Notes under the pieces: model-generated
Seen by the model: only the letters and a program-made list of their open reading frames with translations
The model's database searches: none
What the model was told of the DNA's origin: nothing
NCBI RefSeq assembly: GCF_028368935.1
Contig: NZ_JAQNDK010000004.1
Location: 930,001-994,000 of the forward strand
Origin: Sorangium aterium
GTDB lineage: Bacteria; Myxococcota_A; Polyangia; Polyangiales; Polyangiaceae
Reading direction: 5' to 3'
Length of the DNA stretch: 64,000 nucleotides
Part shown: positions 27,942 to 46,954 of the stretch, one piece after another
How the letters are laid out: each line of letters starts with the position of its first letter
How positions within the stretch are numbered: position 1 is the first letter of the stretch
Translations under genes and position numbers: made by a program

Positions 27942-28856
27942 ATGAGGTGGCGGTCCCGAGGGATCACGGCGGCGTGGGCGCTCTGGCTCGCGCTCGGCGG
28001 GGCGGGGTGTGAGGACCAGCGCTTCGTCATCGGCATGCTCGCGCCGGGGCAGGGCGGGGGAGGGGGCGCGCCGGAGCGGCCGAGGTTCGAGGCGCCGACG
28101 GCGATGACGGAGCTCAACAGCAGCAAAAGGGAAGAGGACCCGACGCTCACGGACGATCTGCTCGAGATCTATTTCATGTCCGATCGCGAGGGGAACCGGG
28201 ACATCTGGACGTCGCGGCGGGCAGGGGTGGGCTCGCCCTGGGACCCGCCGCACGCCGTGGAGAACATCAACCTGGCCGAGAGCATCGAGGATACCCCCTG
28301 CGTCTCCGGGGATGGGCTCCGGCTCTGGTTCTACAGCAGGCGCGAGCCGGAGGGCACCTGGCTGGCCGAGCGCGCCAGCCGGGGCGACCCGTGGGGAACG
28401 CCGGCGCACGTGGACTCCCTCGCCGTCGAGGGCGCCACGGTGATGGGCGCTCAGGTCGATCCCACAGGGCTCCACGTCGTGACCGGCGTCACGCCCGCGG
28501 ACGCGGAGACGTACCTCGCGATCGCATCGCGCGAACGCCCGGAGGACGACTGGAGCGCGCTCATCCCGCTCGCCGGGCTGGACGGCCCGGGCGACGAGGG
28601 TGGCCCGTTCCTGTTCGACGACGGCAAGCAGATGCTGTTCCGATCGAGCCGCGCGGGCGAGGGAGACCTGTTCTGGGCACGGCGGGCAAGCGCCGAAGCG
28701 GCGTTCGAGGAGCCGGTGCCGCTCGAGGAGCCGGTGAACCTCCCCGGGGAGCGCGACACCGATCCGCACCTCTCACCGGACGGCTCCGTCCTGTATTTCG
28801 CGTCGACGCGGACCAGCGTCGCCGACCTCTACGAGGCCCGCCGCGCCGCGCCTTGA
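27942..28856 (+). CDS. PD40 (TolB-like) beta-propeller lipoprotein
   Basis: This is a 304-residue lipoprotein (signal ending GGAGC, Cys about 23). The mature part has WD40-like PD40 repeats: LEIYFMSDREGNRDIW, LRLWFYSRREPEGTW, KQMLFRSSRAGEGDLFWA and SVLYFASTRTSVADLYEA. This propeller type is found in TolB and in many myxobacterial surface lipoproteins, usually for protein or peptide binding. The ATG at 27942 follows AGGAG at nine bases. It may share a transcript with the MFS gene 68 bp upstream. No catalytic motif is seen. Confidence 0.85.
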   Translation: MRWRSRGITAAWALWLALGGAGCEDQRFVIGMLAPGQGGGGGAPERPRFEAPTAMTELNSSKREEDPTLTDDLLEIYFMSDREGNRDIWTSRRAGVGSPWDPPHAVENINLAESIEDTPCVSGDGLRLWFYSRREPEGTWLAERASRGDPWGTPAHVDSLAVEGATVMGAQVDPTGLHVVTGVTPADAETYLAIASRERPEDDWSALIPLAGLDGPGDEGGPFLFDDGKQMLFRSSRAGEGDLFWARRASAEAAFEEPVPLEEPVNLPGERDTDPHLSPDGSVLYFASTRTSVADLYEARRAAP

Positions 28857-29036
28857 TCCGACTCCTGATCTCGCGCGGCGCGGAGCGCGACGTGGATCCC
28901 GCTCGCCGCGCCGGACGAGGCGGCGGCAAGATACCTCCCGGAAGCTCACGACGCGTGGATCTGCGGCATCCTGTGCCGGTGTAAAAGTCTTGCTGGGCGT
29001 GAAATTCCCCAACTTCACGGGAAATTGGAGCGACCC

Positions 29037-29046
29037 GTGATTGATC
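29037..29046 (+). promoter_or_regulatory. GTGATTGATC box upstream of the GH43 gene
   Basis: This is copy 1 of a conserved element. GTGATTGATC is followed by GCGGGCGCTCC and preceded by an AAATT block and GCGACCC. It lies about 56 bp before the GH43 start codon and points toward it. Six related copies occur at 33637, 39027, 46534, 46759, 55174 and 62493. Confidence 0.6.
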
Positions 29047-29101
29047 GCGGGCGCTCCGGTCCACCTGGGAAAGCGGGACCAAGGGAGCTCCAGGAGATTC
29101 G

Positions 29102-30355
29102 ATGCATCCTTTGCTTTGCCGGCCGTGGCGACGATGTGGGTCTGCGCGTACATGGGGCGTCATGATCGGCGCCGTCGCAACGCTCGCGAATTGCAGCACG
29201 GAGAGCTCGGCGCCGGGCTCCGGCTCAGGGGGGCAGGACAGCGGCGCCGCCGGCGCTGATGCCACGACGACCGCCTCTGCCACCACGGCGGGCAGCGGCG
29301 CGGGAGGCCATCCGGGCGCGACGGCCGGAGGGGGCGGCGCCGAGGGCGTCGGAGGGAGCGGCGGCGCGGGCGGGAGCGGCGGCGCGGGCGGGGGCGGCGG
29401 CGCGGGAGGCGCCGCCGACAGGTGCGCCGATGCCCTCTACGACCCGGCGAGCCCGCCCAAGGCGCTGCGCTTGTCCGGGAACCTCGGGACCCACGACCCG
29501 TCCGTCATCCGGGCCGGCGACCGCTATTACCTGTTTCATACGGGGGACAGGATCCCGATGAAGGTCTCCTCGGACCTCCTCGCGTGGCAGGCCGCCGGCC
29601 GGGTGTTCGACGCCAGGCCGGCCTGGCTGGCGGAGAAGGTCCCGGGCGTGAGCGATCTGTGGGCGCCCGATATCTCGCGCTTCGGGGACACCTATCATCT
29701 TTACTACTCCGCCTCGACGTTCGGCAGCAACCGCTCGTGCATCGGGCACGCGACGAAGGCCTCGCTCGACTCGGCAGGTCCGTGGACCGACCGCTGCGCC
29801 GCCATCTGCTCGAACGACGGCGCGGCGCGGGACGACTGGAACGCGATCGATCCCAACGTCGCGATGGATGAGGAGGGCACGCCATGGCTCGTGTTCGGGA
29901 GCTTCTGGAGCGGTATCAAGATGGTGAAGCTCGCCCCGTCGGGGGAGCGGGCCGACGAGGAGCTCCACGCCCTCGCCGCGCGCCCCGACGCCCGCGGGGC
30001 GCTCGAGGCGCCGTTCATCGTGCGGCGCTGCGGCTTCTATTACCTGTTCGTCTCGTTCGACGCCTGCTGCCGTGGGGCCGACAGCACCTACAAGGTCGCC
30101 GTCGGTCGTTCGACGCGCATCACCGGCCCGTACGTCGACGAGGAGGGCACGCCGATGATGTCCGGCGGCGGCACCATCGTCGTGGAAGGTGGCTCCCGGT
30201 GGCGAGGGCCTGGGCACAACGCCGTGTTGTTCGCCGGCGATCGCGCCTACAACGTCTATCACGCCTATGACGCGGAATCGAACGGCGCCCCCACGCTGCG
30301 GATCTCCGATCTGGCGTGGGACAACGACGGGTTTCCGCGCTCCGGAGGGCCGTAG
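29102..30355 (+). CDS. GH43-family arabinanase (endo-1,5-alpha-L-arabinanase type), lipoprotein
   Basis: This is a 417-residue lipoprotein (signal ending LANC, Cys about 31) with a roughly 75-residue Gly/Ala linker and a five-bladed GH43 propeller. The three acidic residues are in place: catalytic base Asp in LGTHDPSVI (about 132), pKa-modulating Asp in WNAIDPNV (about 250) and general acid Glu in ALEAPFI (about 302). The motif order and the C-terminal GPGHNAV segment, with its conserved His, fit subfamilies 4-6, the endo-acting arabinanases that cut the arabinan side chains of pectin. The ATG follows CCAGGAG. Downstream, after 72 bp, comes the ECF sigma operon, and the 3' end of this gene is repeated at 33746. 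Confidence 0.92.
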   Translation: MHPLLCRPWRRCGSARTWGVMIGAVATLANCSTESSAPGSGSGGQDSGAAGADATTTASATTAGSGAGGHPGATAGGGGAEGVGGSGGAGGSGGAGGGGGAGGAADRCADALYDPASPPKALRLSGNLGTHDPSVIRAGDRYYLFHTGDRIPMKVSSDLLAWQAAGRVFDARPAWLAEKVPGVSDLWAPDISRFGDTYHLYYSASTFGSNRSCIGHATKASLDSAGPWTDRCAAICSNDGAARDDWNAIDPNVAMDEEGTPWLVFGSFWSGIKMVKLAPSGERADEELHALAARPDARGALEAPFIVRRCGFYYLFVSFDACCRGADSTYKVAVGRSTRITGPYVDEEGTPMMSGGGTIVVEGGSRWRGPGHNAVLFAGDRAYNVYHAYDAESNGAPTLRISDLAWDNDGFPRSGGP

Positions 30356-30425
30356 TCAGGGCCGTAGTCGCGCTGCCGTCGCCGTGCTCCGGGAGGCGCG
30401 CCTTGACCTGGACTTCCGGGCTCGT

Positions 30426-30446
30426 GCATGCTGGTCGCCAGCATGC
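30426..30446. promoter_or_regulatory. Perfect 9-bp inverted repeat over the sigma gene start
   Basis: GCATGCTGG and CCAGCATGC are exact inverses separated by TCG. The element contains both candidate start codons (30428 and 30443) of the sigma gene, so it could be an operator or an mRNA hairpin hiding the start. In the duplicate gene at 33962 the matching region is altered and cannot pair. Confidence 0.5.
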
Positions 30447-31096
30447 GAAAGCCTGCGACTCACCTCCACGCGCCGCCGGAGGGAGCGCCGCCGGAGGGAG
30501 CGCCGCCGCGGGCGGACGAACTGCTCGGGCTCGCCCGGGCCGCCGCGGCGCGCGATCCGGCGGCGATCCGCACGCTCGTCACGGAGCTCGGCGGCGCCAT
30601 GTTGCGGGGCGTGAGGAAGGTGCTCGGCCCTCATCACCCCGACGTCGAGGACACGACCCAGGAAGCCGTGCTCGCGTTGCTCCAGGCGCTGCCGTCCTTC
30701 CGCGCGGAGTGCACCGTGCTGCATTTTGCCAACCGCATCGCCGTGATGACCGCGCTCGGCGCGCGCCGGCGCCTCCGCGTGCGCGCGCGCTTCGACGAGC
30801 CGGGCGCGCCGATCGACGTGGCCCCGGACGAGGGCGGCGCGTCGCCGTTCGCCGAGGCGGTCTCGAACCGGCGGCGTGAGATGGTGCTCCAGGTGCTCGA
30901 CGGGATGCCCGAGGCCACGGCGGAGGCGCTCGCCCTCCATTTCGTGCTCGGCTACACGGTCGACGAGATCGCGGCGCTCGCCGGCGCCTCTCCGAACACG
31001 GTCTGGAGCCGGCTCCGGCTCGGCAAGGAGGCGCTGCGGCGCGCGTTCGCCAACAACGCGAAGCTGGCCGAGCTCTTCCGGGGGAGGGAAACATGA
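30428..31096 (+). CDS. ECF RNA polymerase sigma factor (copy 1)
   Basis: This is a 222-residue extracytoplasmic-function sigma factor. Region 2 is seen as RTLVTELGGAMLRGVRKVL followed by HPDVEDTTQEAVLALLQALPSF (the DxEDxxQE core helix binding, in parts). Region 4 is a helix-turn-helix, ALHFVLGYTVDEIAALAG then SPNTVWSRLRLGKEAL. A Pro-rich N-terminal tail is unusual. It is followed with a 4-bp ATGA overlap by its probable anti-sigma factor. The position inside the pectin-degradation region suggests control of the surrounding enzyme genes; that is inference. A near-identical copy lies at 33962. Confidence 0.92.
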   Translation: MLVASMRKPATHLHAPPEGAPPEGAPPRADELLGLARAAAARDPAAIRTLVTELGGAMLRGVRKVLGPHHPDVEDTTQEAVLALLQALPSFRAECTVLHFANRIAVMTALGARRRLRVRARFDEPGAPIDVAPDEGGASPFAEAVSNRRREMVLQVLDGMPEATAEALALHFVLGYTVDEIAALAGASPNTVWSRLRLGKEALRRAFANNAKLAELFRGRET

Positions 31097-32148
31097 CGAC
31101 CGACTGCCGGAGCGAGCTCCTCACGCGGGTGCGCCGCGGCGTCGCGACCGAGCCGGACCGGCTCGCCTTCGACGCCCACCTCGACGCCTGCGAGTCCTGC
31201 CGGACCACCTGGGAAATCGCCCAGGATTTCGACGCCGTGGGCGCGGCGGAGCCCGGGGACGCAGAGCGCCTCGCGCGCATCGTGAGCGCGGCGATCGGGG
31301 CGGTTGCGATCGACCAGCGGCGCGAGGGCGCGCCCGTGTGGCCCGCGAGCGCGCCCGTGCGACCCGACAACGACGTCCGGCGCGGGGACGAGGACGCGCG
31401 ACCCGGGGGCGGTCCCGCGGGGCGGCGCGGGGCCGGCTGGCGGCGCAGCGTCTGGCTCTACGCCGCGGCGGTCGTCCTCGCCTGCGGCGTGGCCGCCGCG
31501 ACAACGGCGCTCGTCCGTTCGCGCCTGGAGCCGACCCCGGCGGGGAGCGCCCGTTTGCTCGAGCCCGCGGCGCGCGCGGTGGTGTCCCGTTCGCGTGCGG
31601 TCGCGCTCGCCGAGGCCGTTCCGCCTCCCGGCGAGGCCGCGCCGGCCGGCGCGCGGCCGGCGCAGCCGGGCGCGCCGGCGCCCGTCGAAGCGGCGCTTCC
31701 GGCGCTCGCGGCGCCTGCCCCGAGGCCGCGCGACGCCGGGCGCGGGCCGAGCGCGACGGCGTCCTCCGCGTCGACGGCCGAGCAGCTCTTCCGGGAGGCC
31801 AACGAGGCGCGGCGCGCTGGGAACTCGCAGCGCGCCGTCGAGCTCTATCGCTCGCTCCAGAAGAGCTTCGCGACGTCGCCCGAGGCCACGCTCTCCCTCG
31901 TGTCGCTGGGCAACCTGCTCCTCAACACCGGCGCGCCTGCCGCGGCGCTCGTGCAGCTCGACCGGTACCTCGGCGTGGCCGGCTCACGGCCGCTCGCCGT
32001 CGAGGCGCTCTATGGCCGCGGGCGCGCCTTGCGGGCGCTCGGCCGCTCCGCCGACGAGGCCCAGAACTGGCGGCGGCTGCTCCGGGATCACCCAGGCTCG
32101 CCGTACGTCGAGCATGCGCGCCGCCGTCTCGCCGAGCTCGGAGGGTGA
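31093..32148 (+). CDS. Transmembrane anti-sigma factor with periplasmic TPR-like domain
   Basis: This is a 351-residue protein. The first 45 residues hold a zinc-type anti-sigma motif, AHLDACESC (HxxxCxxC, His about 29). One membrane helix follows (VWLYAAAVVLACGVAAATTALV, about 117-140, quoted in family terms). After a Pro/Ala-rich linker come tetratricopeptide-like helices from about 230 to the end (AEQLFREANEARRAGN, AVELYRSLQKSF, AVEALYGRGRALRALGR). The layout fits a regulator that holds the sigma factor in the cytoplasm and senses through its periplasmic TPR part. Its start overlaps the sigma stop and its stop overlaps the next start (GTGA), so all three genes are coupled. Confidence 0.88.
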   Translation: MTTDCRSELLTRVRRGVATEPDRLAFDAHLDACESCRTTWEIAQDFDAVGAAEPGDAERLARIVSAAIGAVAIDQRREGAPVWPASAPVRPDNDVRRGDEDARPGGGPAGRRGAGWRRSVWLYAAAVVLACGVAAATTALVRSRLEPTPAGSARLLEPAARAVVSRSRAVALAEAVPPPGEAAPAGARPAQPGAPAPVEAALPALAAPAPRPRDAGRGPSATASSASTAEQLFREANEARRAGNSQRAVELYRSLQKSFATSPEATLSLVSLGNLLLNTGAPAAALVQLDRYLGVAGSRPLAVEALYGRGRALRALGRSADEAQNWRRLLRDHPGSPYVEHARRRLAELGG

Positions 32149-33272
32149 TCACGAAGCGAGCGACGGCAGCGCTCGGGCTCGCCGCGGTCGTCGCGCTCTC
32201 CGCGGCGCGCGCCCAGGCGAGCGACGCGACGGCGGCGGCGTCGTCCGGATCGCCGGGGGCGCCGGCGCCCGGCGCGCCGGTGGTGGAGCTCGTGCTCACG
32301 GGCGCCGCGGACAACCTCGGCGCGATCCGGACGGCGCTCGAGTCCCAGGCGCTCTCCGCGTTCACGATCCGCTTTCGGACCGCGCCGCGGTTCGACGCGC
32401 CGGCGCTCTTCGCGACGCGGGCCTCCTCCGGCGTGAGCGTCTCGTGTTGGATCGACGTGAGCGACCCGCGCCGCGCCGCGCTCTACTTCACGGATCCCGT
32501 GGCCGATCGCTTCCTGGTGCGCTCGATCGATCTCTCGGGTCGCTTCGACGAGCTCGATCGCGAGTCCTTGGCGCAGGTCGTGGAGCTCTCGCTCCGGTCG
32601 CTGCGCCTGGACGCGCGCGCCTCGCTCGATCGGGAGCAGGCGCGCGCGCTCATCCTGCGCCAGGCGGCGCCTCCCGAGGCGCCCTCCGAAGCTCCTGTCT
32701 CCGGGGGGGCGGCGCCGGCGCGGCGCGCGCTGGAGCTCGGGCTCTTCTACGGCGTGACGGCGCACTCGGCCGAGGTCGGCTTGACGCACGGCCCCGGCGT
32801 ACGCGTCGCGCTCGGCGGGAGCTGGGAGCGGCACCGGCTCGCCCTCGACGCGCGCTTCCAGTACCAGTTCGAGCGCCGCTACGAGGAGGCGCGCATCGGC
32901 CTCGATCTCCGCACGATCGCGCTCCGGGCCGATGCCTGCTGGCTCTACGCCCTCGCCCCGGGCGTGGCGCCGATCGAGCTCGGCGTGCGGCTCGGCGCGG
33001 GCATCGATCATGTCGACGCCGCGCCGAGGCCGGGCAGCGCTGAGGCACCGGCGGTCGTCCCTGCGGAGGCGAGCGCCTCGAACGCGCTCGTGCTCGTGGC
33101 CGGCTCGGTGGTCGAGCTGGCTCTGAGCCAGGATGTCCGGCTGTTCGCGGAGCTCTTCGCCGAGCTCGACCCGGCGCGCGTCCGCTACGATCTCAGGCTC
33201 GAGCAGGGGACCGAGACCGTCCTCACGCGCTGCCGGCTCCGGCCTGGCGTGCTCCTCGGCATCGAGCTCTGA
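32145..33272 (+). CDS. Secreted protein with beta-barrel-like C-terminus, third gene of sigma operon
   Basis: This is a 375-residue protein of unknown function. A signal peptide (AVVALSAARAQAS) is followed by a roughly 160-residue mixed domain (VVELVLTGAADNLGAIRTALE). Then come alternating hydrophobic strands with aromatic ends (ELGLFYGVTAHSAEVGL, RLALDARFQYQFERR, PIELGVRLGAGIDHV) that look like an outer-membrane barrel. The GTG start at 32145 overlaps the anti-sigma stop. As the third member of a sigma/anti-sigma operon it may be the surface sensor or a pore. Its last codons (RPGVLLGIEL) reappear at 46571 and in the 259-bp cassettes. Confidence 0.75.
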   Translation: MITKRATAALGLAAVVALSAARAQASDATAAASSGSPGAPAPGAPVVELVLTGAADNLGAIRTALESQALSAFTIRFRTAPRFDAPALFATRASSGVSVSCWIDVSDPRRAALYFTDPVADRFLVRSIDLSGRFDELDRESLAQVVELSLRSLRLDARASLDREQARALILRQAAPPEAPSEAPVSGGAAPARRALELGLFYGVTAHSAEVGLTHGPGVRVALGGSWERHRLALDARFQYQFERRYEEARIGLDLRTIALRADACWLYALAPGVAPIELGVRLGAGIDHVDAAPRPGSAEAPAVVPAEASASNALVLVAGSVVELALSQDVRLFAELFAELDPARVRYDLRLEQGTETVLTRCRLRPGVLLGIEL

Positions 33273-33396
33273 GGACGGGTCACCTCAGGTCCCGCGCGAG
33301 CCGCTCTGGCGTTCGACGCGAGCGGCTCCGCGGATTCCTTCGTTGGTGCAATGTGCAGTCCAGGCGACGGCTCCGGTCGCCGCGAGAAATTCGGGC
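33241..33396 (+). repeat. Native relative of the 259-bp cassettes (gene end plus downstream DNA)
   Basis: The last 32 bp of the barrel-like gene and the following roughly 125 bp match the first two-thirds of the cassettes at 46596-46854 and 38941-39199. The match includes the cctggcgtgctcctcgg and gggtcacctcaggt segments and the gagaaattcgg block. The similarity is lower (clear by eye, with many substitutions) and stops before the GTGATTGATC box. This locus looks like the source of the cassettes. Confidence 0.65.
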
Positions 33397-33636
33397 TCCC
33401 CGGCAGAATGTGTGGGCGCATGAGCCGAGCAAGGGCAGAACGACTTGCGGGCATCGGTTCCAGGATTCCGCCGTTCCAGAAGGTCGCACGGACCCTCCGT
33501 GGCCATCGACGCGGAGCGGCGTGGCCGACCTCTGACGAAGCTCGCCGCGTCGCACCTCGATTCGCCTTGATCCTGTGTCGACGCAAAATTGCTGCGAAGA
33601 CGATTCTTGGCGCTCCACGAGAAGGTCGAGCAACCC

Positions 33637-33646
33637 ATGATTGATC
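33637..33646 (+). promoter_or_regulatory. GTGATTGATC-type box before the GH43 remnant
   Basis: Copy 2 reads ATGATTGATC with GTGGGCGCTCCGG after it and GAGCAACCC before it. Box, spacer and ribosome site (CTCAGGAG) all align with those before the intact GH43 gene at 29037-29102. This shows that a whole promoter-gene unit was copied and then lost most of its coding part. Confidence 0.55.
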
Positions 33647-33721
33647 GTGGGCGCTCCGGCCCATGTGGGAGAGCGGGACGACTCGGCGAACGATTCGCCA
33701 AGGGAGCCTCAGGAGTTCAAG

Positions 33722-33913
33722 ATGCGTGTCACGCTTGTCGTGGGAGGCGGCTCCCGGTGGCGAGGGCCCGGACACAACGCCGTGCTGTCCTCCGGCGATC
33801 GCTCTTACAACATCTATCACGCCTACGACGCCGAATCGAACGGCGCACCGACGCTGCGGATCTCCGATCTGGCGTGGGACACCGACGGCTTTCCGCGCTC
33901 CGGAGGGCCCTAG
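33722..33913 (+). pseudogene. Remnant of a second GH43 gene (3' end only)
   Basis: From about 33746 the frame matches the last 55 residues of the GH43 enzyme at 29102: GGSRWRGPGHNAV, YNIYHAYDAESNGAPTLRIS and DTDGFPRSGGP. The propeller and all three catalytic acids are missing. A start codon and ribosome site survive at 33722, so a 63-residue peptide could still be made. It precedes the second sigma gene just as the intact GH43 gene precedes the first. Nucleotide identity with the parent is visibly lower here than in the sigma gene that follows. Confidence 0.85.
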
Positions 33914-34676
33914 TCGCGCCGTCGTCGCCGGGCTCGGAGCTGCGCGCCTTGACCGGGAGTTATGGACTCAACCTTCGTCGCCAGAATGCGGGGGCCTGCG
34001 GCTGACCTCGACGCGCCGCCGGAGGGAGCGCCGCCGCGGGCGGACGAACTGCTCGGGCTCGCCCGGGCCGCCGCGGCGCGCGATCCGGCGGCGATCCGCA
34101 CGCTCGTCACGGAGCTCGGCGGCGCCATGTTGCGGAGCGTGAGGAAGGTGCTCGGCCCTCGTCACCCCGACGTCGAGGACACGACCCAGGAAGCCGTGCT
34201 CGCGTTGCTCCAGGCGCTGCCGTCCTTCCGCGCGGAGTGCACCGTGCTGCATTTTGCCAACCGCATCGCCGTGATGACCGCGCTCGGCGCGCGCCGGCGC
34301 CTCCGCGTGCGCGCGCGCTTCGACGAGCCGGGCGCGCCGATCGACGTGGCCCCGGACGAGGGCGGCGCGTCGCCGTTCGCCGAGGCGGTCTCGAACCGGC
34401 GGCGTGAGATGGTGCTCCAGGTGCTCGACGGGATGCCCGAGGCCACGGCGGAGGCGCTCGCCCTCCATTTCGTGCTCGGCTACACGGTCGACGAGATCGC
34501 GGCGCTCGCCGGCGCCTCTCCGAACACGGTCTGGAGCCGGCTCCGGCTCGGCAAGGAGGCGCTGCGGCGCGCGTTCGCCAACAACGCGAAGCTGGCCGAG
34601 CTCTTCCGGGGGAGGGAAACATGACGACCGACCGCCGGAGCGAGCTCCTCACGCGGGTGCGCCGCGGCGTCGCGAC
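33746..34676 (+). repeat. Segmental duplication of 30189-31148
   Basis: The segment contains the GH43 3' end, the sigma gene and the first 19 codons of the anti-sigma gene, in the same order as 30189-31148. It ends abruptly: both copies read gtcgcgac, then diverge at 31149 and 34677. The sigma-coding part is almost identical, while the GH43 part and the stretch between the genes have drifted. Confidence 0.9.
33962..34624 (+). CDS. ECF RNA polymerase sigma factor (copy 2, without anti-sigma)
   Basis: This 220-residue sigma factor is identical to copy 1 from the PPEGAPPRADELLG segment onward except for two residues (Gly to Ser in MLRSVRK, His to Arg in GPRHPD). The first roughly 17 residues differ. 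Regions 2 and 4 are intact. All domains needed for activity are present, but the following anti-sigma gene is cut after 19 codons. If expressed, this copy would depend on the anti-sigma factor from 31093 for control. The inverted repeat over the start of copy 1 is not conserved here. Confidence 0.9.
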   Translation: MDSTFVARMRGPAADLDAPPEGAPPRADELLGLARAAAARDPAAIRTLVTELGGAMLRSVRKVLGPRHPDVEDTTQEAVLALLQALPSFRAECTVLHFANRIAVMTALGARRRLRVRARFDEPGAPIDVAPDEGGASPFAEAVSNRRREMVLQVLDGMPEATAEALALHFVLGYTVDEIAALAGASPNTVWSRLRLGKEALRRAFANNAKLAELFRGRET

Positions 34677-34770
34677 GAATCGCCTTGCTCCTCCTGCCCC
34701 CTCAGCCGAGGAGCGCCCGCGAGCGGTCACCGCTGCGACTTCTCGACGGATTGCACGTCGAGCTGAATGA
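34621..34770 (+). pseudogene. Truncated anti-sigma factor
   Basis: The frame begins MTTDRRSELLTRVRRGVAT, matching the anti-sigma factor at 31093 except for Cys4 to Arg. It then runs into unrelated sequence and stops at 34770, inside the 3' end of the convergent lipoprotein gene. The zinc motif, membrane helix and TPR part are all absent, so it cannot act as an anti-sigma factor. The ATGA overlap with the sigma stop is retained. Confidence 0.85.
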
Positions 34771-35524
34771 ACTGACCGTTGTACGGCTGGGGCGCCGGCG
34801 CGATGCCGTTCACGACCAGATGCTTGAAGTTGGCGATCATTCTATGGTTCGGATCCTCGCCCTTGAAGGAAACCGTGGCTCCGCCCCGGACCGGAATGGT
34901 CTTCGTGTGGTCGATGATGAACACGTCGTGCCCCACGGTGGGGTTATCGTTGAGGTAATAGGTCTCGGCCGGGTCGGAGACAGAGAAGCTGTAGCGGTTG
35001 TACGTCGGATTGTCGGGTGTACCGCCCACGCGGAAGTGCATGCCGTCGGGCGTGCCGCCCTTGTAGATCTCCGGCTCGACGACGCCGCGGAGCCGGACGG
35101 TCACGTGATAGACCGTGTCGGGCGAGCCGCCGAACGTCTTGGTCTGGTTGATCAGCGTGGACGTCGCACACTCGTCACGGTTGCCCGGGTCTTCGTCGCA
35201 CGGCATCTCCCAGCGGAAGCCGTCGATGCTGGCGGCCGCGGTGCGCAGATCTTCCTCGCCGCTGCCCCCGCCGCCTCCGCCGTTGCCGCCGTTGCCGCCT
35301 CCGCCGCCGTCTCCGTCGCTGCCGCCGTCTCCGTCGCTGCCGCCGGTCCCGCCGGAGCTCGCGCTGCTCGAGGCGCTCGTGCTGACGCTCGTCGAGACCC
35401 CGCCGCCCGAGCCCCCAGCGCCGGTCGTGCTGGAGCTGGCCTGGTCGTCCGAAGGCGGGTCGGAATCGGAGCCGCAGGCAAGAAGGACCATCATCGCAGG
35501 GACCACGATCAGAGAAAGTCTCAT
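34727..35524 (-). CDS. Lipoprotein of unknown function with Gly/Asp-rich linker
   Basis: This is a 265-residue lipoprotein (signal ending LLAC, Cys about 17). A roughly 75-residue linker is made of Ser/Thr and then GGSDGDGG-type repeats. The mature domain (about 90-265) is beta-rich, with TVYHVTVRLRGVVEPEIYK, GMHFRVGGTPDNPTYNRYSF, HDVFIIDHTKTIPV and FKHLVVNGIAP in order, which suggests a jelly-roll or carbohydrate-binding sandwich. I do not recognise the family. Its 3' end overlaps the anti-sigma remnant on the other strand, so the duplication was inserted up to or into its terminator. It is downstream of the DUF1552 gene on the same strand. Confidence 0.75.
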   Translation of the reverse strand: MRLSLIVVPAMMVLLACGSDSDPPSDDQASSSTTGAGGSGGGVSTSVSTSASSSASSGGTGGSDGDGGSDGDGGGGGNGGNGGGGGGSGEEDLRTAAASIDGFRWEMPCDEDPGNRDECATSTLINQTKTFGGSPDTVYHVTVRLRGVVEPEIYKGGTPDGMHFRVGGTPDNPTYNRYSFSVSDPAETYYLNDNPTVGHDVFIIDHTKTIPVRGGATVSFKGEDPNHRMIANFKHLVVNGIAPAPQPYNGQFIQLDVQSVEKSQR

Positions 35525-35609
35525 TGTACACCAGTCCGGCGAGAGCGCCGGCAGTTGAGGCTGGGGACGCGGAACGTCGTTGCGTTGATACCGCGTCTCG
35601 TTCGAATGG

Positions 35610-36992
35610 CTAGGTCAGGTTCGTGAGCGGTCCGGTGCAGTACCGCGGGTCGCCAAAGGTGGTCCTGGTATCGCCGAACAGGTTCAAGATCGAGACGAGC
35701 AGGTTGTTGTGCGGGAGGTGCGAGTACCGGACCCAGCGTCCGGTGCGCAGGCCCCCGCCGCCGCCGGCCAGCAGGAACGGCATGTCGTTCTTCTTGTGCG
35801 ACGGCGGATCCGAGAGCTCGGAGCCGAAGAAGACGACGCTCTCGTCGAGCAGCGAATGCCCGCCCATGTCGATCTTCTCCATCTCCTGCAGGAGGTAGAG
35901 GTGCTGCTTCGAGTACCAGTTGCAAATGCGCTCGCACTCGGCCGGCTTGAAGCCGCCGTCGTGCTGGTAGAAATGGTGGTGCTCGGTCAGGTTGAGCCAG
36001 GGGAAGGTGTGCTTCGCCTCGGTGTCGCTCCACTGAAGGGTGCCGACCGCGGTGATGTCGCAGGCGAGCGCCATCACCAGCATATCGGTCATGAGCTTGC
36101 CGACCTTGGGGATCGCCGCGTCGGTCGAGGTGTCCTTGACGTTGCCCTTGTCGTCCGCGTTGAGCCCGGTGCGCGGGTTGTAGTCGGACGTGTCGACCAT
36201 CGTCGGGGCCTTGCAAGAGCTCATCGTGGTCGGGGTGTCGGTGCTGCTGAGGCTCTGCTCGATCTCGCGGATCTTCGTCAGGTGCTGGTCGATCTTCTGC
36301 TTGTCGGCGGCGCCGAGCGCCGCGGACACGGCGGAGTAGCGCCGGTCGAGGAAGTCGAGGATCGATTGCTGTCGCGCGAGGCGACGGGCGGCGTCGTTGT
36401 TGTCGCTCGGGTTCAGCGTACCGAAGAGCTTGGTGAAGATCTCCACCGGATCGAGGCGCGGCGGGATCGGCTTGTGCGGCGCGGCGTTCTCGTAGTTCGC
36501 AGCGTTCATCGGCGACAGCAGGCCGTGGGCCTTGCCCGTCGCCCAGCGCACCGCGATCTGGATGCTCGCCTGCGCCTTTTGACCAGCGGAGATCCGGGCG
36601 GCGATCACCTGATCGATGGACGGCCCGCTCCCGTAGCCGCCGTTGTTGGCGCCCTCTTGCGCCGTACCGGTGAGCCAGGCGACGATCCCGGCCTGGTGCT
36701 GCTCCCCGAGCGCGCTCTTCATGTCGAGGCCGTCGACGACGAGCAGGCGGTTTTGCACCGGAGCGAGCGGCGCAAGGATGGGGCTCAGGGTGAAGCTCGT
36801 CTCCGTGCCGGTCGGCCTCCAGCGGTTCAACACGGTCCCGCCGGGCGTGTAGACGGCGAGGAAACGCTTGGCGGGCTCGGGGGCCGCGCGCGCGGTGCGT
36901 TCGGGGCCCATGATCTCCAGCCAGGGAAGCGCGACGGCGATGGCGCCGGCACCCCGCAGCATGGCACGTCGGCTCAAGCGATATTTCGACAT
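35610..36992 (-). CDS. DUF1552-family protein, Tat-exported
   Basis: This is a roughly 460-residue protein of the DUF1552 family. The N-terminus is a twin-arginine signal (RLSRRAMLRGAGA), so it is exported folded, possibly with a cofactor. Family features seen are RFLAVYTPGGTVLNRW, LLVVDGLDMKSALGEQHQAG, the His-rich NLTEHHHFYQHDGG, and FFGSELSDPPSHKKNDMPFLLAG. The fold resembles sulfatase/alkaline-phosphatase-like DUF1501 relatives, but the reaction is unknown. Starts at 36998 and 36992 are both possible; 36992 has AGGAG at eight bases. The gene overlaps or abuts the DUF1592 gene upstream, the usual pairing for these families. Confidence 0.9.
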   Translation of the reverse strand: MSKYRLSRRAMLRGAGAIAVALPWLEIMGPERTARAAPEPAKRFLAVYTPGGTVLNRWRPTGTETSFTLSPILAPLAPVQNRLLVVDGLDMKSALGEQHQAGIVAWLTGTAQEGANNGGYGSGPSIDQVIAARISAGQKAQASIQIAVRWATGKAHGLLSPMNAANYENAAPHKPIPPRLDPVEIFTKLFGTLNPSDNNDAARRLARQQSILDFLDRRYSAVSAALGAADKQKIDQHLTKIREIEQSLSSTDTPTTMSSCKAPTMVDTSDYNPRTGLNADDKGNVKDTSTDAAIPKVGKLMTDMLVMALACDITAVGTLQWSDTEAKHTFPWLNLTEHHHFYQHDGGFKPAECERICNWYSKQHLYLLQEMEKIDMGGHSLLDESVVFFGSELSDPPSHKKNDMPFLLAGGGGGLRTGRWVRYSHLPHNNLLVSILNLFGDTRTTFGDPRYCTGPLTNLT

Positions 36993-36997
36993 ACCCA

Positions 36998-38716
36998 TCA
37001 CTCCTGTCCTGGAGCCAAGTAGTGGAAAGCATCCGTCTGCGTGAGCTCGATCAGGAGCTGCTTCACGTTGTAGCCGGACGCCTCGAAGGCGGTCGTGATC
37101 GCCTGTTGGGTGCACCGATCCTCAGCGCGCAGGGTGAGGCCGTAGGCGAACTCGCTCCAGCGCTTTGCGAAGCAGCTCTGAACCTCTTCGGAGCCGGCGA
37201 GCTTCTGCACCAGGTCGATCGGCCCGCTCACGTCCCCCAGCGTCTCCGGGACCGTGCCGCTCGGGTCGATCGTGACGCCGTTTTCGGTGGCGCGGAACAG
37301 CCCGACCGCGTCGTAGTTCTCGAACGCGAAGCCGACCGGATCCATGAACTTGTGGCACCCCGCGCAGACCGGATCCTTGCTGTGCTGGCTGAAGCGCTCC
37401 CGCGCCGTCTTGCCGGAGTAAGGATCCGGCGGCTTGACCTGCTCCAGGATCGCGCCGGTGGGGAGCGGGATCGAGATACACATCAGCTTCTGGAGCACGA
37501 ACGAGCCGCGGACCACGGGGTTCGTGTTGTTCGAGTGCGTCGTGCCGGCCATCAAGCCCCCCTGGGTGAGCAGCCCGAGGCGCTGGGTCGTGTCGAGCCG
37601 TACTTCTCTGAACTCGTCGCCCGTCACCCCGGGGATGCCGTAGAACGCCGCGAGCTGCTCGTTCACGAACGTGTACGGGGCCGTCAAGATGGACGGCCAG
37701 GTGCCGGTCCCCTCGAAGATCTCGTGCTCGAGGAACCGCTGGGTCTCCTCGCGCATCAACGAGCCGATGGTGCGAGAGAAGGTCGGGAAGGCGTCCGCGT
37801 TTCGCTCGAGATCCGCGAGGCTGCTGATGGGGAGCAGGTTGTCGAAGAAGAACCGGAAGGTGGGCCGAGACCGAGGATCGTCGAGCATGCGCTCGGCGTG
37901 CGCGCGCACGCCCTCCTTCGTCGATAGCTCACCTGCCTGCGCGGCCATGCGCAGCTGCTCGTCTGGCATCGTGCCCCAGAGCATGTACGAGAGCCGCGTC
38001 GCCATCTCGTCGCCCGTAGGTCGGCGGAGCTGGGGGCGCTCCGGGTCGGGCGTGCCCTTCTCGATGCGGTAGAGAAAATCGGGCGATTGAAGCAACGCCT
38101 CGATCACCGTCGCGACGCCGGCGGCGAACGTCGCGTCCTTTCGTCCAACGCTGTACAGCGCGAGGAGCTCGTCCGCCTCGCCGGCGGCGACGGGCCGGCG
38201 GTACGCGCGCGGGGCGAGCCTCTCGATGATCGTGCGCGCGCACGCCTCCTCGCTCCCTGCCGTCACGTTGCTCGCGCAAGGGGCGAGCTTCGCGAGCGCC
38301 TCCGGCGTGGCCGTCGCACGCTGGGCGATGCCCTCCGCGACGGTGCCCAGCTGCTCGGCCAGCAGGCTCGAGACCGACAGCGTGTCCGCGTCATTGCCGA
38401 AACCGTTCCCGACATCCTCGCTCGGCAGCGAGAAGGCGGGATCGGTCGTGTCGCCCAGGAGGTCGCGAACGGTGTTGTTGTACTCGAAGCGCGTGAGCCG
38501 CCGCAGCGGCGCTCGCCCGGGGTACACCACGCCGTCCTCGCACACGGGCGGGTCCACTGGGGTGGGGGAATTTTCTTCATCAGGATCAGGTTCGCCCGAG
38601 GTGCCCTGGTTGCCCACGCTTCCAGTGCAGCCGCTGGCGACGATCAACGCGATCGGGATAGCTGACCGACGTCTTCTGAGACGACTCGCTTGCTCATGAT
38701 TCGAGTGCCTAGACAT
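36998..38716 (-). CDS. DUF1592/DUF1588/DUF1585-type lipoprotein with a haem c motif
   Basis: This is a 572-residue lipoprotein (signal ending VASGC, Cys about 30). It carries the chained domains of the planctomycete/myxobacterial type: a DUF1587-like start (LRRLTRFEYNNTVRDLLG), DUF1595 (RTIIERLAPRAYRRPV), DUF1592 (RPTGDEMATRLSYMLWGTMPDE), DUF1588 (RLGLLTQGGLMAGTTHSNNTNPVVRG) and DUF1585 (end). A single CAGCH (Cys451, Cys454, His455) followed by KFMDPVGFA is a c-type haem attachment site. It is probably an extracytoplasmic electron-transfer partner of the DUF1552 protein encoded next. A 259-bp cassette with a GTGATTGATC box lies upstream in the same orientation. Confidence 0.9.
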   Translation of the reverse strand: MSRHSNHEQASRLRRRRSAIPIALIVASGCTGSVGNQGTSGEPDPDEENSPTPVDPPVCEDGVVYPGRAPLRRLTRFEYNNTVRDLLGDTTDPAFSLPSEDVGNGFGNDADTLSVSSLLAEQLGTVAEGIAQRATATPEALAKLAPCASNVTAGSEEACARTIIERLAPRAYRRPVAAGEADELLALYSVGRKDATFAAGVATVIEALLQSPDFLYRIEKGTPDPERPQLRRPTGDEMATRLSYMLWGTMPDEQLRMAAQAGELSTKEGVRAHAERMLDDPRSRPTFRFFFDNLLPISSLADLERNADAFPTFSRTIGSLMREETQRFLEHEIFEGTGTWPSILTAPYTFVNEQLAAFYGIPGVTGDEFREVRLDTTQRLGLLTQGGLMAGTTHSNNTNPVVRGSFVLQKLMCISIPLPTGAILEQVKPPDPYSGKTARERFSQHSKDPVCAGCHKFMDPVGFAFENYDAVGLFRATENGVTIDPSGTVPETLGDVSGPIDLVQKLAGSEEVQSCFAKRWSEFAYGLTLRAEDRCTQQAITTAFEASGYNVKQLLIELTQTDAFHYLAPGQE

Positions 38717-38940
38717 GGCTGTCGCCCTTCGCCCGCCGTGGGCGCGCTAAAGTCCCATCATCCAACAACTGGCTTGTCTTACGAAGTGGTGGAAATATCC
38801 ATGACGCAGCTCTCTCCCGGCGGGGCCTGATGCCGGGCGGGACATGTCGGGTCCGTTCCGGTGGTTCAAGCGTCCGGCGTTCCCGCCCGCCGAGAGCAGC
38901 ACGGCCCCCACGCGTTGCCCGGCCACGGGGCAAGCATTCA

Positions 38941-39199
38941 AGTCCCTGTCAACTGGATGTGGATGAAGAGGGTAGGGAGCCACCGCCAAGCACCGCTCTG
39001 CTCTCCCTGTGAGCTGAAGCGCCCGCGATCAATCACACGTTGTCCGAATTTCTCGCGCGGGGACCGGATCCGTCGTCCGGGATATAGATTTGCACCCAGG
39101 AAGGACGCCGCGGTGCAGCTCGCGTCGAACGACAGCCCGCTCGCCCGGTACCTGAGGTGACCCGCCGTCAGAGCTCGATGCCGAGGAGCACGCCAGGCC
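38941..39199 (-). repeat. 259-bp cassette, copy B (minus orientation)
   Basis: Read on the minus strand it starts with the last codons of the barrel-like gene (CTCGGCATCGAGCTCTGA) and continues through GGGTCACCTCAGGT. It then has an AAATT block, the GTGATTGATC box, CAGGGAGAGCAGAGCGG and a final GACAGGGACT. It has the same length as copy A at 46596-46854, with no gap needed to align them and only scattered substitutions. It lies between the DUF1592 gene and the SDR gene. Confidence 0.9.
39027..39036 (-). promoter_or_regulatory. GTGATTGATC box upstream of the DUF1592/DUF1552 operon
   Basis: Copy 3, inside cassette B, points toward the DUF1592 start about 310 bp away. It is preceded by GACAAC and an AAATT block and followed by GCGGGCGCTTCAGC. 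Confidence 0.55.
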
Positions 39200-39261
39200 G
39201 TCGGCGTGATCGTCAGGCTCGTCCACCGCGGGAAGGGGCCGCCGTGGGGAGGCAGGGCCCA

Positions 39262-40254
39262 TCAACCGGGGTACCACGTGACGCGCGGGTCATCGGGCGC
39301 GCGCACGTAGTCGAAGGCGGCATCCGTGAGCCTCGCCAGGTCGTACTGCGGCCGCCAACCGAGCAGAAACTTCGCCTTCGAGTTGTCCAGCCACGTCGAA
39401 TGGAACGGCGTCTTCACCCTCACGCTCGGCAGGCCCCGCGTCGCCTCCAGGTAACGCGCCAGCTCGCCGTAGTCCACGGGCTCATCCATGCAGATGTTGA
39501 AGGTCTGCTGGCGAGCCTTCTCATGATGGATGGCCTTGAGGATCGCGGTGACCAGATCCTCCACATGCACGAAGTTACGCTTCACCGGCTCGCCGCGGCG
39601 GTCGAGCATCACCGGCACGGCGTCCGAGCGGACGTACCCCTCCGATGCCTCGGCGCCGACCAGATCGCGCCACCTCGGCCCTCCGAACACGTCGTCGCCG
39701 AAGGACAGCTGCGCCTTGAAGTCGTCCTTCTCCATGATCCAGGGCGCGCGCAGGCAGCATCCGTTGAGCTCATATTGAATGTAATATTGCTCGAGCATGA
39801 CCTCCTCGAGCACCTTGGACAGCGCGTAGCAGCCCGGGTAGGCGCTGTGCCGCTGGGTCTCCGTCACGGGGACGGGGTGCGGATAGAAGAAGTGGCCCAT
39901 CCCGGCGTCGCCCCCGACCAGGATGAATTGCTCGAACGTGGGGCTGACGCGGCAGGCCTCCAGCAGCCAGAACATGCCTTTGACGGCTACGTCCATGATG
40001 CTCTCGGGGGTCTCCTTGCTCGTCGCCAGGTGCAGCACGTGGCTCACCCCCTCGGTCGCCTCGTTGACGACGGCCCTGTCCTCGATGGTCCCACGCAGCA
40101 CCTCCACGCGCGCCGTCCGCTCCAGCATGCGGTTGTGGCACAGCGCGCGGACCTTCCACCCCTCGAACGCGGGGTCCGACAGGAACCTTCGGATGAATGT
40201 CTGGCCGACCTTGCCCGCCGCCCCGGTGACCAGAATTCGCTTGGCCTCGATCAT
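39262..40254 (-). CDS. Extended-SDR NAD(P)-dependent sugar epimerase/dehydrogenase
   Basis: This is a 330-residue extended short-chain dehydrogenase. The nucleotide-binding motif is RILVTGAAGKVGQ (about 6-18), and the active-site Tyr and Lys are in YALSK, with the Ser/Thr partner upstream in LVGGDAG. The C-terminal substrate region (FVHVEDLVTAILKAIH) is typical of the NAD-dependent epimerase/dehydratase family. It is the last gene of the sugar ABC-transporter operon, 24 bp after a permease. It therefore probably oxidises or epimerises an imported sugar from pectin, for example galactose, arabinose or a uronate. A uronate-dehydrogenase-like role is one possibility. The exact substrate is not readable. 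Confidence 0.85.
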   Translation of the reverse strand: MIEAKRILVTGAAGKVGQTFIRRFLSDPAFEGWKVRALCHNRMLERTARVEVLRGTIEDRAVVNEATEGVSHVLHLATSKETPESIMDVAVKGMFWLLEACRVSPTFEQFILVGGDAGMGHFFYPHPVPVTETQRHSAYPGCYALSKVLEEVMLEQYYIQYELNGCCLRAPWIMEKDDFKAQLSFGDDVFGGPRWRDLVGAEASEGYVRSDAVPVMLDRRGEPVKRNFVHVEDLVTAILKAIHHEKARQQTFNICMDEPVDYGELARYLEATRGLPSVRVKTPFHSTWLDNSKAKFLLGWRPQYDLARLTDAAFDYVRAPDDPRVTWYPG

Positions 40255-40278
40255 TCTATCGCTCCTCGCTCTCCGGCA

Positions 40279-41283
40279 TCATCGATGATGACCGTACTCC
40301 ACCCCCCTGGCTGCAGGGGCCGATCGGATCAGGACCTGCTGCATGACGATGAAGACGAGCAGCAGCAGCCCGATGCTGATGTGGTGCCAGGGCGACGGCA
40401 GCCGTCCATCCAGGTTGATCACCGCTCGCACGATGCCCGTGATCATCACGCCCATCACGGTGCCGACGACGCTGCCAGCCCCCCCGGTCAGCAGCGTTCC
40501 ACCGATCACCACCGAGGCGATGGCCTCGAGCTCCAGCCCCGCGCCGATGTTCGGCTTTCCGGCGCTGTCGATCAGCGCCGTCGTGACCCCGCCGAGGCCC
40601 GCGCACAAGCCGCACAACGCATAAAGACACACCGTCGTGGCGCCCAGCGGCACCCCCATGAGCAGCGCGGCCTGCCTGTCCCCGCCGATGGCGAGGACGT
40701 TCCGGCCGAAGCTCGTGCTACGGCCGAGGATCACGCCGAGCACGAGGACGATCAAGAACAGGAGCGCCGTCGCCGGGACCCAGGTCCGGTCCAGGCCCGG
40801 GATCGCCAGCGCGAAGCCGAGCTCATCGACGATCCAGTCCAGCGCAGGGTGATCGATGCCGATGGGCTGCATGCTGACGAGGAACGCCGCGCCGCGGGCG
40901 AAGAACATGCCCGCGAGCGTCACGAGGAACGGGGGCAGAGAGAAACGATGGATCAGGTGCCCCGTCATCGCGCCGAACGCGACCGACACCGCGAGGCCGA
41001 CACAGAACGCCACCACCGGGTGGCAGCCACCGGCGACCAGCGTGCCCACGAGGACCGTCGTGAGCGCGACGACGGAGCCGACCGAGAGGTCGATGCCCCC
41101 CGACAGGATGACGAAGGTCATCCCCACCGCGCAGAGGCCCATCGCCGCGTTCCCCTTGATCAGGTCGACCAGGAAACGCAGGCTGCGCGCCGCGTCGTAA
41201 CAGACCAGCACCCCCGAGTAGAGCGCGATCAGGAGGACCGCGGTCACCATGAGCGGCAGATCCCGCCGATCCCAGCGGAGCAT
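40279..41283 (-). CDS. Sugar ABC transporter permease 2
   Basis: This is a 334-residue membrane protein of the BPD_transp_2 family (ribose/galactofuranose type), with about nine hydrophobic helices. The family segments GMTFVILSGGIDLSVGSV and IGGTLLTGGAGSVVGTVMG are present. It starts two bases after the stop of permease 1, so the two form a heteromeric channel, as in the YtfT/YjfF arrangement. It belongs to the operon 45026 to 39262. Confidence 0.9.
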   Translation of the reverse strand: MLRWDRRDLPLMVTAVLLIALYSGVLVCYDAARSLRFLVDLIKGNAAMGLCAVGMTFVILSGGIDLSVGSVVALTTVLVGTLVAGGCHPVVAFCVGLAVSVAFGAMTGHLIHRFSLPPFLVTLAGMFFARGAAFLVSMQPIGIDHPALDWIVDELGFALAIPGLDRTWVPATALLFLIVLVLGVILGRSTSFGRNVLAIGGDRQAALLMGVPLGATTVCLYALCGLCAGLGGVTTALIDSAGKPNIGAGLELEAIASVVIGGTLLTGGAGSVVGTVMGVMITGIVRAVINLDGRLPSPWHHISIGLLLLVFIVMQQVLIRSAPAARGVEYGHHR

Positions 41284-41285
41284 CC

Positions 41286-42368
41286 CTACTGCCCCCGCTT
41301 GAGGCCGAGCAGCTCGAGCAGCCGCCGGCGCGACTCCTCCGAGACCAGCAGACAGCTGAGCAGCATCACGCCGGCCTTGGGCATCGGCTCGATCTCCGAG
41401 GGGACATGCTGGATGTACATCGTGGTGGAGAGCGTTTGTATCAACAACGCTCCTATCAGGGTGCCACCCAGGTAGAAGCGCCCGCCGGTGAGCGCCGTAC
41501 CGCCGATCACCGCGGCGAAGATGGCGTCCAGCTCCCGCAGGCGCCCCACGCGATCGGGGTCGGCCGTGGAGATGTACGAGGCGGCCACGAGGCCGGCGAT
41601 GCCGGCGCACAGGCCGGAAAAGCCGTACAACCAGAGCTTGATGCGGCGGTCGTCGACGCCGGCGAGCCGGCTCGCCCGCTCGTTGTCGCCGATCGCTTCC
41701 ATGAACAGGCCGAGCGCCGTCCTCCGGCAGAGCAGCGCGGCGACGACGAACACGGCGGCCACCAGCACCATGGAGAACGGCAAGCCACCGACGTGACCGT
41801 TGCCGATGAACGCAAACGTCGCATCCGTGTGCGTCACGGGCTCGGCGCGGGTGATGAGCATGGCGACGCCGCGGACACCGACCATGCTGATCAAGGTCAC
41901 GATGATGGGCTGGATGTTCAGCGCCGTCACCAGCGCGCCGTTGAACAGACCGACGCCGCCGGCGACGGCGAGCGACAAGAGCGCAGCCAGGAGCGGCCCG
42001 CAGTGAGCCTCCTTCATCAGGATCACGCAGGTGGCGCCAGACAACGCCATGACCGAGCCGACCGATAGATCGATGCCCCTCACGGCGATCACCAGGGTCA
42101 GGCCGATCGCGAGGAGCATCACCTCCGAGCCCTGGTTGAGCAGGTTGATGGGCGTCCCGTAATAAGCCCCGTCGCGCTCGACGATGGAGAAGAAATTCTT
42201 GGACAGGACCGAATTGAACAGGAGGAGCGCCAGGAGGCCGAGCAAAGGCCAGGCCTCGCGGCGCCCGCGCAGGAGCAGCAGGGCGCCGGCGCACCCGGTG
42301 AAGAGGAGGATTGCGATGCCGGTGAGGTTGGCGTTCGTGGGCGCCGCTTCCGTGATCTTCTCAAGCAT
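41286..42368 (-). CDS. Sugar ABC transporter permease 1
   Basis: This is a 360-residue inner-membrane permease of the same family as its neighbour. The characteristic GLTLVIAVRGIDLSVGSVMAL and IGGTALTGGRFYLGGTLIGA segments (quoted in parts) are seen. The start overlaps the ATPase gene by 8 bp. The C-terminal tail (EESRRRLLELLGLKR) is longer than in permease 2. With permease 2 it forms the membrane channel for the sugar bound by the lipoprotein encoded at 43998. Confidence 0.9.
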   Translation of the reverse strand: MLEKITEAAPTNANLTGIAILLFTGCAGALLLLRGRREAWPLLGLLALLLFNSVLSKNFFSIVERDGAYYGTPINLLNQGSEVMLLAIGLTLVIAVRGIDLSVGSVMALSGATCVILMKEAHCGPLLAALLSLAVAGGVGLFNGALVTALNIQPIIVTLISMVGVRGVAMLITRAEPVTHTDATFAFIGNGHVGGLPFSMVLVAAVFVVAALLCRRTALGLFMEAIGDNERASRLAGVDDRRIKLWLYGFSGLCAGIAGLVAASYISTADPDRVGRLRELDAIFAAVIGGTALTGGRFYLGGTLIGALLIQTLSTTMYIQHVPSEIEPMPKAGVMLLSCLLVSEESRRRLLELLGLKRGQ

Positions 42369-43899: not shown

Positions 43900-43997
43900 G
43901 CGGCTGCTGCTCCGTACGTGAGCGCCGCGCGACGAGCGAGCTCACGAGCGTGATGGCGCTCGCGCCGCCCCAGCGGGGCGCCAGCGCCGATCTCTCC

Positions 43998-45026: not shown

Positions 45027-45094
45027 GTACTTTTCCCTTCCTGCTACGCCGTCCCCAAGGTTGCCATCCGGCCGCTTCACCAGCAGCAGCACGG

Positions 45095-46426: not shown

Positions 46427-46460
46427 GGATTGCTCTAGATGCCAGGGTTCGCTGGCGACC

Positions 46461-46565
46461 AGGATGTGGATGAAGAGGATACGGGGCCACCGCCGGGCGC
46501 CGCTCTGCTCTCCCTGTGAGCTGAAGCGCCCGCGATCAATCACATGTTGTTTGAATTTCTCGTGA
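46461..46565 (-). repeat. Partial cassette copy C (minus orientation)
   Basis: On the minus strand this matches the box-containing half of cassette A: the AAATT block, the GTGATTGATC box, GCGGGCGCTTCAGC and CAGGGAGAGCAGAGCGG, ending near CTCTTCATCCACATCC. With copy A it forms a roughly 100-bp inverted repeat, so the divergent GH53 and PL11 genes have mirror-image promoters. Confidence 0.85.
46534..46543 (-). promoter_or_regulatory. GTGATTGATC box upstream of GH53
   Basis: Copy 4, preceded on the minus strand by AAACAACAT and followed by GCGGGCGCTTC. It lies about 110 bp before the GH53 start. Confidence 0.6.
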
Positions 46566-46570
46566 CCGAC

Positions 46571-46627
46571 GCGGTCCTCACGCGCGACCGGTTCCGGCCT
46601 GGCGCGCTCCTCGGCATTGAGCTCTGA
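46571..46627 (+). pseudogene. Remnant of the 3' end of the barrel-like gene
   Basis: Nineteen codons read AVLTRDRFRPGALLGIEL and a stop, matching the end of the protein at 32145 (TVLTRCRLRPGVLLGIEL). Only the 3' tip remains. It shows that a sigma-operon end once lay directly upstream of the PL11 gene. Confidence 0.8.
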
Positions 46628-46854
46628 CGGCGGGTCACCTCAGGTCCCGGGCGAGCGGGCTGTCGTTCGACGCGAGCTGCACCGCGGCGTCCTTCCTGGG
46701 TGCAAATCTACATCCCAGGTGACGGCTCCGGTCCCCGCACGAAAAATTGGGACAACGTGTGATTGATCGCGGGCGCTTCAGCTCACAGGGAGAGCAGAGC
46801 GGCGCCCGGCGGTGGCCCCGTACCCTCTTCATCCATATTTAGTTGACAGGGACT
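46596..46854 (+). repeat. 259-bp cassette, copy A (plus orientation)
   Basis: This is nearly identical to 38941-39199 read in reverse, over the same length with no gaps. It runs from the last codons of the barrel-like gene through GGGTCACCTCAGGT, the AAATT block and the GTGATTGATC box to GACAGGGACT. It ends 100 bp before the PL11 start codon. Confidence 0.9.
46759..46768 (+). promoter_or_regulatory. GTGATTGATC box upstream of PL11
   Basis: Copy 5, inside cassette A. It is preceded by AAATTGGGACAAC and followed by GCGGGCGCTTCAGC, and it points to the PL11 gene about 187 bp away. Confidence 0.6.
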
Positions 46855-46954
46855 CCATGATCGCTCGGCGGGCGCGCTCGCGCCCGTCGAGCGACATGCA
46901 CTTACCGGTCGCCCTGCGGCGCCGCGCGCCGATGGCCGGGGAGGAGAGAATCTG

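Follow-up and report, generated by a model that had tools for sequence, protein, structure and literature searches.

Organization of the duplicated sigma locus

The window analysed here is a 64,000-nucleotide stretch of DNA (C4:930001-994000) from a 13.47-Mb Sorangium genome in seven contigs, and positions without a contig prefix refer to this window. An extracytoplasmic function (ECF) sigma gene is common to two of its segments, designated copy 1 (30172-31148) and copy 2 (33730-34676). Copy 1 belongs to a conserved operon, and copy 2 is probably an old and decaying duplicate of that operon whose sigma gene has been refreshed by gene conversion. The features of the locus are listed in Table 1.

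Copy 1 occupies the ancestral position. The relatives used for comparison are the Sorangium cellulosum strains So0157-2, So ce26, So ceGT47, and So0008-312, in which the ancestral order is MFS transporter, PD40 protein, GH43, ECF sigma, anti-sigma, and outer-membrane-like protein (OMP). The OMP gene of So0157-2 is followed by a GDSL esterase and a rhamnogalacturonan lyase; in So ceGT47, the sigma, anti-sigma, and OMP genes are contiguous and the GH43 gene is approximately 15 kb off. Orthologs of the copy-1 GH43 gene are found with their order kept in So0157-2, So ce26, and So0008-312, and the product scores 332 bits against the NCBIfam model AbnA (under the model cut-off of 480). The start of the sigma gene in the relatives is a GTG codon at the position matching the ATG of copy 1. 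Both sigma copies encode PF04542 (Sigma70_r2) and PF08281 (Sigma70_r4_2) over the Pfam cut-off, and thus regions 2 and 4 only; the copy-1 protein is also over the cut-off for TIGR02937. The start codon of the copy-1 anti-sigma gene overlaps the sigma stop codon (ATGA), and its product has an HxxxCxxC zinc site (AHLDACESC) and a membrane span that was read from the sequence. Orthologs of this anti-sigma factor are present in the four relatives, and an HxxxCxxC frame lies directly behind sigma in most of the loci scanned for more distant homologs. A Pfam search with the OMP returned zero matches.

The operon shares features with two known types of regulatory system. Like ECF factors paired with class I (zf-HC2/ASDI) anti-sigma factors (PMC7406223), copy 1 encodes sigma2 and sigma4 domains and has an overlapping gene for a zf-HC2 membrane anti-sigma factor; unlike them, the anti-sigma factor here has C-terminal TPR repeats, and copy 2 is partnerless. 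Clostridial SigmaI/RsgI (PMC6056542) is likewise a membrane anti-sigma/sigma pair beside polysaccharide-degradation genes, but its sigma type and anti-sigma factor are unrelated to those described here, where the association is known from gene neighbourhood rather than from a regulon.

Table 1. Features of the sigma locus and its duplicate, with positions in the window
Feature	Position	Strand	Evidence
GH43 arabinanase-like gene, copy 1, intact, 417 aa	29102..30355	+	Pfam PF04616, E 4.6e-52
TTGACC-N14-CGTGCAT promoter-like element directly upstream of sigma 1	30403..30429	+	conserved in five Sorangium loci
ECF sigma gene, copy 1, 217 aa from ATG 30443	30443..31096	+	
Anti-sigma factor gene: zf-HC2, one membrane span, TPR repeats	31093..32148	+	zf-HC2 and TPR_16 above Pfam cut-off
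Outer-membrane-like protein gene, third operon gene, conserved	32149..33272	+	orthologs after anti-sigma in So0157-2, So ce26, So ceGT47
PD40-gene tail remnant, old left part of duplicate	33506..33572	+	81% identity with 28803-28870; local score 70 (shuffled, at most 29)
GH43 control region, duplicated, carrying the GATTGATCG element	33613..33679	+	82% identity with 29013-29079; score 74 (shuffled, at most 26)
GH43 remnant: start codon fused in frame to last ~60 codons, ~1.1 kb missing	33722..33913	+	
Sigma-2 counterpart of promoter-like element: TTGACC retained, CGTGCAT changed to CAACCTT	33949..33975	+	
ECF sigma gene, copy 2, 212 aa	33986..34624	+	both sigma domains over Pfam cut-off
Probable gene-conversion tract at its minimum extent, matching 30485-31148 at 661/664 bases	34013..34676	+	alignment, permutation test, silent-site counts, trees
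Truncated anti-sigma copy: 19 homologous codons, then unrelated sequence, 49-codon frame; without zinc site	34621..34770	+	
Lipoprotein-like gene abutting right break	34727..35524	-	homology to contig C5 paralog starts at 34707

Each of the four relatives has one sigma gene of this type per genome, and no further close copies are found genome-wide beyond the two described here: the duplicate is lineage-specific. The original prediction for this DNA placed a repeat of 30189-31148 at 33746-34676, and a BLAST self-match recovers it at slightly greater length (30179-31148 against 33737-34676, 92.4% over 970 columns). The pieces upstream of sigma 2 keep the operon order of copy 1. The presence of the PD40-tail and control-region remnants in this order indicates that the duplicate once spanned at least 28803-31148 and that it is old. 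The GH43 remnant has a frame that is open over 63 codons, and the ribosome-binding region preceding its ATG (33722) matches that of the copy-1 GH43 gene; compared with copy 1, it differs at 10/43 silent sites (23%) and 6/122 non-silent sites. At the right-hand end, homology stops at 31148/34676, within the anti-sigma gene. The copy-2 anti-sigma gene is cut after 19 codons, as predicted, and ends as a 49-residue frame. The prediction had also noted the loss of Cys4; this cysteine is indeed lost (it is residue 5 counting the Met), but the loss extends to the entire HxxxCxxC zinc site.

Evidence for gene conversion between the two copies

Identity between the copies is not uniform. In the left flank, the GH43 tail matches at 158/177 positions (89%) and the spacer plus N-terminal sigma codons at 81/106 (approximately 76%), as opposed to 661/664 in the sigma core and the start of the anti-sigma gene, with the step located at 30485/34013. 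The GH43 remnant is therefore more diverged than the sigma gene, as had been reported from inspection of the sequence. The claim that the sigma genes differ at two residues holds for the core, where the only protein changes are G to S and H to R and there are no silent changes, but not for the first 14 or so codons, which differ by K3G, T6A, H7D, H9D, and a 15-nucleotide (nt), 5-residue indel.

Silent sites show this step too. The predicted conservation of silent sites across the sigma core is borne out by a synonymous count of zero differences in approximately 166 sites; when the GH43 tail (10/43) is set against the core (0/167), Fisher's test gives p = 5e-8. Between Sorangium strains, the proportion of silent differences (pS) in the same sigma codons is 0.18-0.30, indicating that these sites are not constrained. 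In a permutation test run on the polymorphic columns, the longest concordant run is 89 columns (30634-31101), compared with a shuffle maximum of 64, and 0/100,000 permutations reach it. In maximum-likelihood trees of flank and core alike, the two copies pair as sisters (bootstrap support 100%), with 0.197 substitutions per site separating them in the flank versus 0.005 in the core; the flank branch of copy 2 is 2.3 times that of copy 1. Copy 2 aligns gap-free with So0157-2 over 33944-34676, across the seam, so the identity step sits within continuous homology, as conversion predicts. Gene conversion between the copies, which the original prediction had proposed, is well supported by this fall from approximately 0.20 to 0.005 substitutions per site inside unbroken homology, and by the lack of constraint on silent sites between species.

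The event appears to be fairly recent. The silent divergence of the core has an upper bound of approximately 2% (0/166, rule of three), compared with 23% in the flank, which would date the overwriting to about the final 10% of the time since the duplication (an estimate). The duplication itself had been described as recent, a view contradicted by the 76-89% identity of the flanks and by the silent divergence of the GH43 remnant: it is the overwriting alone that appears recent, in a duplicate that these values mark as old.

Three accounts of the same alignment would dispense with conversion. A single recent duplication followed by faster decay of unselected flanks would draw on the fact that the flanks are partly pseudogene and spacer, but we consider it highly improbable: the contrast in silent changes between GH43 tail and sigma core is too strong (p = 5e-8), the sigma silent sites diverge freely between species, and many of the flank changes are derived in copy 1, where GH43 is intact. 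A recent duplication with relaxed flanks is thus rejected on the silent sites. Two separate duplications, in which an old GH43 fragment came first and a new, non-homologous copy of sigma with the beginning of anti-sigma was added to it later, would yield the same identity step; this is very unlikely, given that the collinear, gap-free alignment of copy 2 with So0157-2 runs over the seam and takes in the spacer, TTGACC, and N-terminal codons of the old part, and that a random insertion would have to hit the homologous base in frame. Collinearity across the seam accordingly disfavours a fresh insertion beside an old fragment. An assembly or sequencing artefact in which the near-identical stretch of 663 bases was misjoined is also highly improbable. 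The contamination estimate of 4.6% is a point in its favour, but the 13.5 Mb are assembled into only seven contigs, each copy is flanked by unique sequence, and three differences lie inside the tract.

Intragenomic conversion between duplicated bacterial genes is already well known, for example in the rRNA operons of E. coli (PMC8022953) and a PE_PGRS pair of tubercle bacilli (PMC1762029), and this locus is a further case. As in those systems, a near-identical tract lies within more diverged homologous flanks, with both copies in one genome. The present tract differs in covering a regulatory sigma gene, the second copy of which is without its anti-sigma partner and upstream element. A literature search found nothing on ECF sigma duplication with gene conversion.

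Expression and control of the second sigma gene

The promoter-like element TTGACC-N14-CGTGCAT is conserved in copy 1 and the four relatives (the five loci of Table 1), in a spacer that is otherwise hard to align among them. It occurs once per genome in the relatives, always upstream of sigma, and twice in the genome studied here. The changes that convert the second box to CAACCTT are derived in copy 2 relative to three relatives, and copy 2 is the only one of the copies compared to have lost the element. A TTGACC-N-CGT motif is absent upstream of the more distant Polyangiaceae homologs, which makes this a Sorangium-level feature. Its conservation suggests that the element is the sigma promoter, and sigma 2 is probably silent or weakly transcribed. 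A sigma-70 consensus scan of 33250-34750 found no promoter and an Rfam scan of 28800-47000 found no match, although such scans cover myxobacterial promoters poorly.

The explanation that best fits these observations, and one that we regard as probable, is that copy 2 is a decaying duplicate, specific to this lineage, that gene conversion has refreshed and that is probably weakly expressed or silent. An old segmental duplicate of the arabinanase-sigma-anti-sigma operon would have landed just behind the original operon and then shed most of GH43, the anti-sigma gene beyond 19 codons, and the conserved element upstream of sigma. RecA-type conversion between direct repeats 3.5 kb apart would then have overwritten at least 612 bases, re-homogenising the sigma coding sequences. 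The homology of the lipoprotein-like gene begins 31 bases from the sigma-2 break, which suggests that the arrival of this gene truncated the second anti-sigma gene. As the core is under ordinary constraint against relatives, the functional copy 1 is the likelier donor. Several points weigh against this explanation. The direction of conversion is not provable: copy 2 holds the derived state at two of the core differences and copy 1 at the third. TTGACC-N14-CGTGCAT is a putative sigma promoter proposed from its conservation, and the GH43 remnant retains an open frame, a start codon, and a control element, from which sigma 2 might be transcribed.

The contrast in divergence between the sigma gene and the GH43 remnant had been taken as a sign either of gene conversion or of selection to keep a second sigma dose. 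Such selection is not supported: the upstream element is lost, the N-terminus has decayed, and the open frame is expected of a gene recently rewritten by conversion, and so is uninformative on selection. The changes since conversion number three, all of them non-synonymous, and do not suffice for a test of selection (the expected ratio of non-synonymous to synonymous changes is approximately 2.6:1 by site counts); copy 2 carries two non-silent and no silent changes, which gives no power on purifying selection. More generally, an intact, near-identical second sigma gene is not in itself evidence of selection, since conversion can rewrite a decaying copy and so reset its apparent age. This is a caution for claims of dosage effects and of "orphan regulators" in duplicate-rich genomes such as that of Sorangium.

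It had also been suggested that an unpaired sigma gene could escape the membrane signal; in this form the suggestion is unlikely. Given how little the sigma cores differ, the copy-1 anti-sigma factor should bind both sigma products by analogy with the class I interface (PMC7406223), and any sigma-2 product should thus be held in trans by the intact membrane anti-sigma factor encoded beside copy 1. A lost anti-sigma neighbour is not equal to lost control, and sigma 2 is not necessarily unregulated. ECF groups without a cognate anti-sigma factor are listed in table 2 of PMC8999054, with Sorangium proteins in ECF220 and ECF276. Copy 2 resembles these in having no anti-sigma gene adjoining it, but their lack of an anti-sigma factor is group-wide, whereas the group of copy 2 has one that was lost here by truncation. 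Were sigma 2 expressed, the locus would offer a natural experiment on an ECF sigma factor in excess of its anti-sigma factor.

The main live alternative to a decaying duplicate, although we judge it unlikely, is that the GH43 deletion placed sigma 2 near the GH43 control element, from which it would be produced along with the regulon genes, and that the result has been selected as a feed-forward or dose copy without an anti-sigma partner and homogenised by conversion. The GATTGATCG element and ribosome-binding region do persist 350 nt upstream of the sigma-2 start, a shorter distance than the 1.4 kb of copy 1; sigma 2 has kept its frame and both its domains; and this strain has further copies of the element in front of other pectin genes. 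Against this, sigma 2 has lost its conserved element and has a degraded N-terminus, the copy-2 GH43 remnant shows relaxed change, purifying selection is not evident after conversion, and the copy-1 anti-sigma factor could presumably still bind sigma 2. The more specific proposal of a feed-forward booster, in which sigma 2 would be produced on demand from the pectin-regulon element without an anti-sigma factor and conversion would keep it matched to sigma 1, is somewhat less likely again. Improbable, too, is a role as a contingency site, at which RecA exchange would delete the anti-sigma and OMP genes (3,528 bases) to leave an unrestrained sigma factor, with frequent exchange keeping the repeats identical. 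The direct repeats (663 bases, 99.5% identical) flank exactly these two genes, and conversion shows that exchange between them occurs; however, this geometry is a property of any direct-repeat pair, the deletion would be irreversible, and a genome carrying the deletion variant has not been seen.

The surrounding block and its shared control elements

Copy 2 opens a block of approximately 16 kb (33273-49203) between the OMP gene and the GDSL esterase gene, and nothing comparable is present there in So0157-2. It carries pectin and galactan genes, which encode a GH53 galactanase, a PL11 lyase, DUF1552/DUF1592 proteins, and a sugar ABC transporter. The region of the lipoprotein-like gene (34707-35662) is 84% identical to the C5 paralog and has orthologs elsewhere in the relatives.

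The 3' tail of the OMP gene and approximately 120 nt downstream of it, fused to a control module of approximately 100 bp, have been copied several times in the genome (46464-46838, 38941-39200, 33209-33394, and C1:2312172-2312447). Copies lie upstream of the DUF1592/DUF1552 genes and also of the GH53 and PL11 genes, where they form a divergent pair with inverted arms at 93%; the relatives carry the original pieces only. The unit looks like a multiplying promoter cassette.

A GTGATTGATCGCGGGCGC element is found upstream of pectin-degradation genes in this genome and upstream of GH43 across Sorangium. It is located at 29037-29054, 33637-33654, 39019-39036 (minus strand), 46526-46543 (minus strand), and 46759-46776, with a variant at 55174. 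This genome carries six clean copies, the relatives one or two; the element may be an operator.

The window also contains two PL11 rhamnogalacturonan lyase genes (46955-49036 and 59975-62353), which are approximately 65% identical in DNA. The second of these encodes a CBM2 domain and is the ortholog of a So0157-2 gene.

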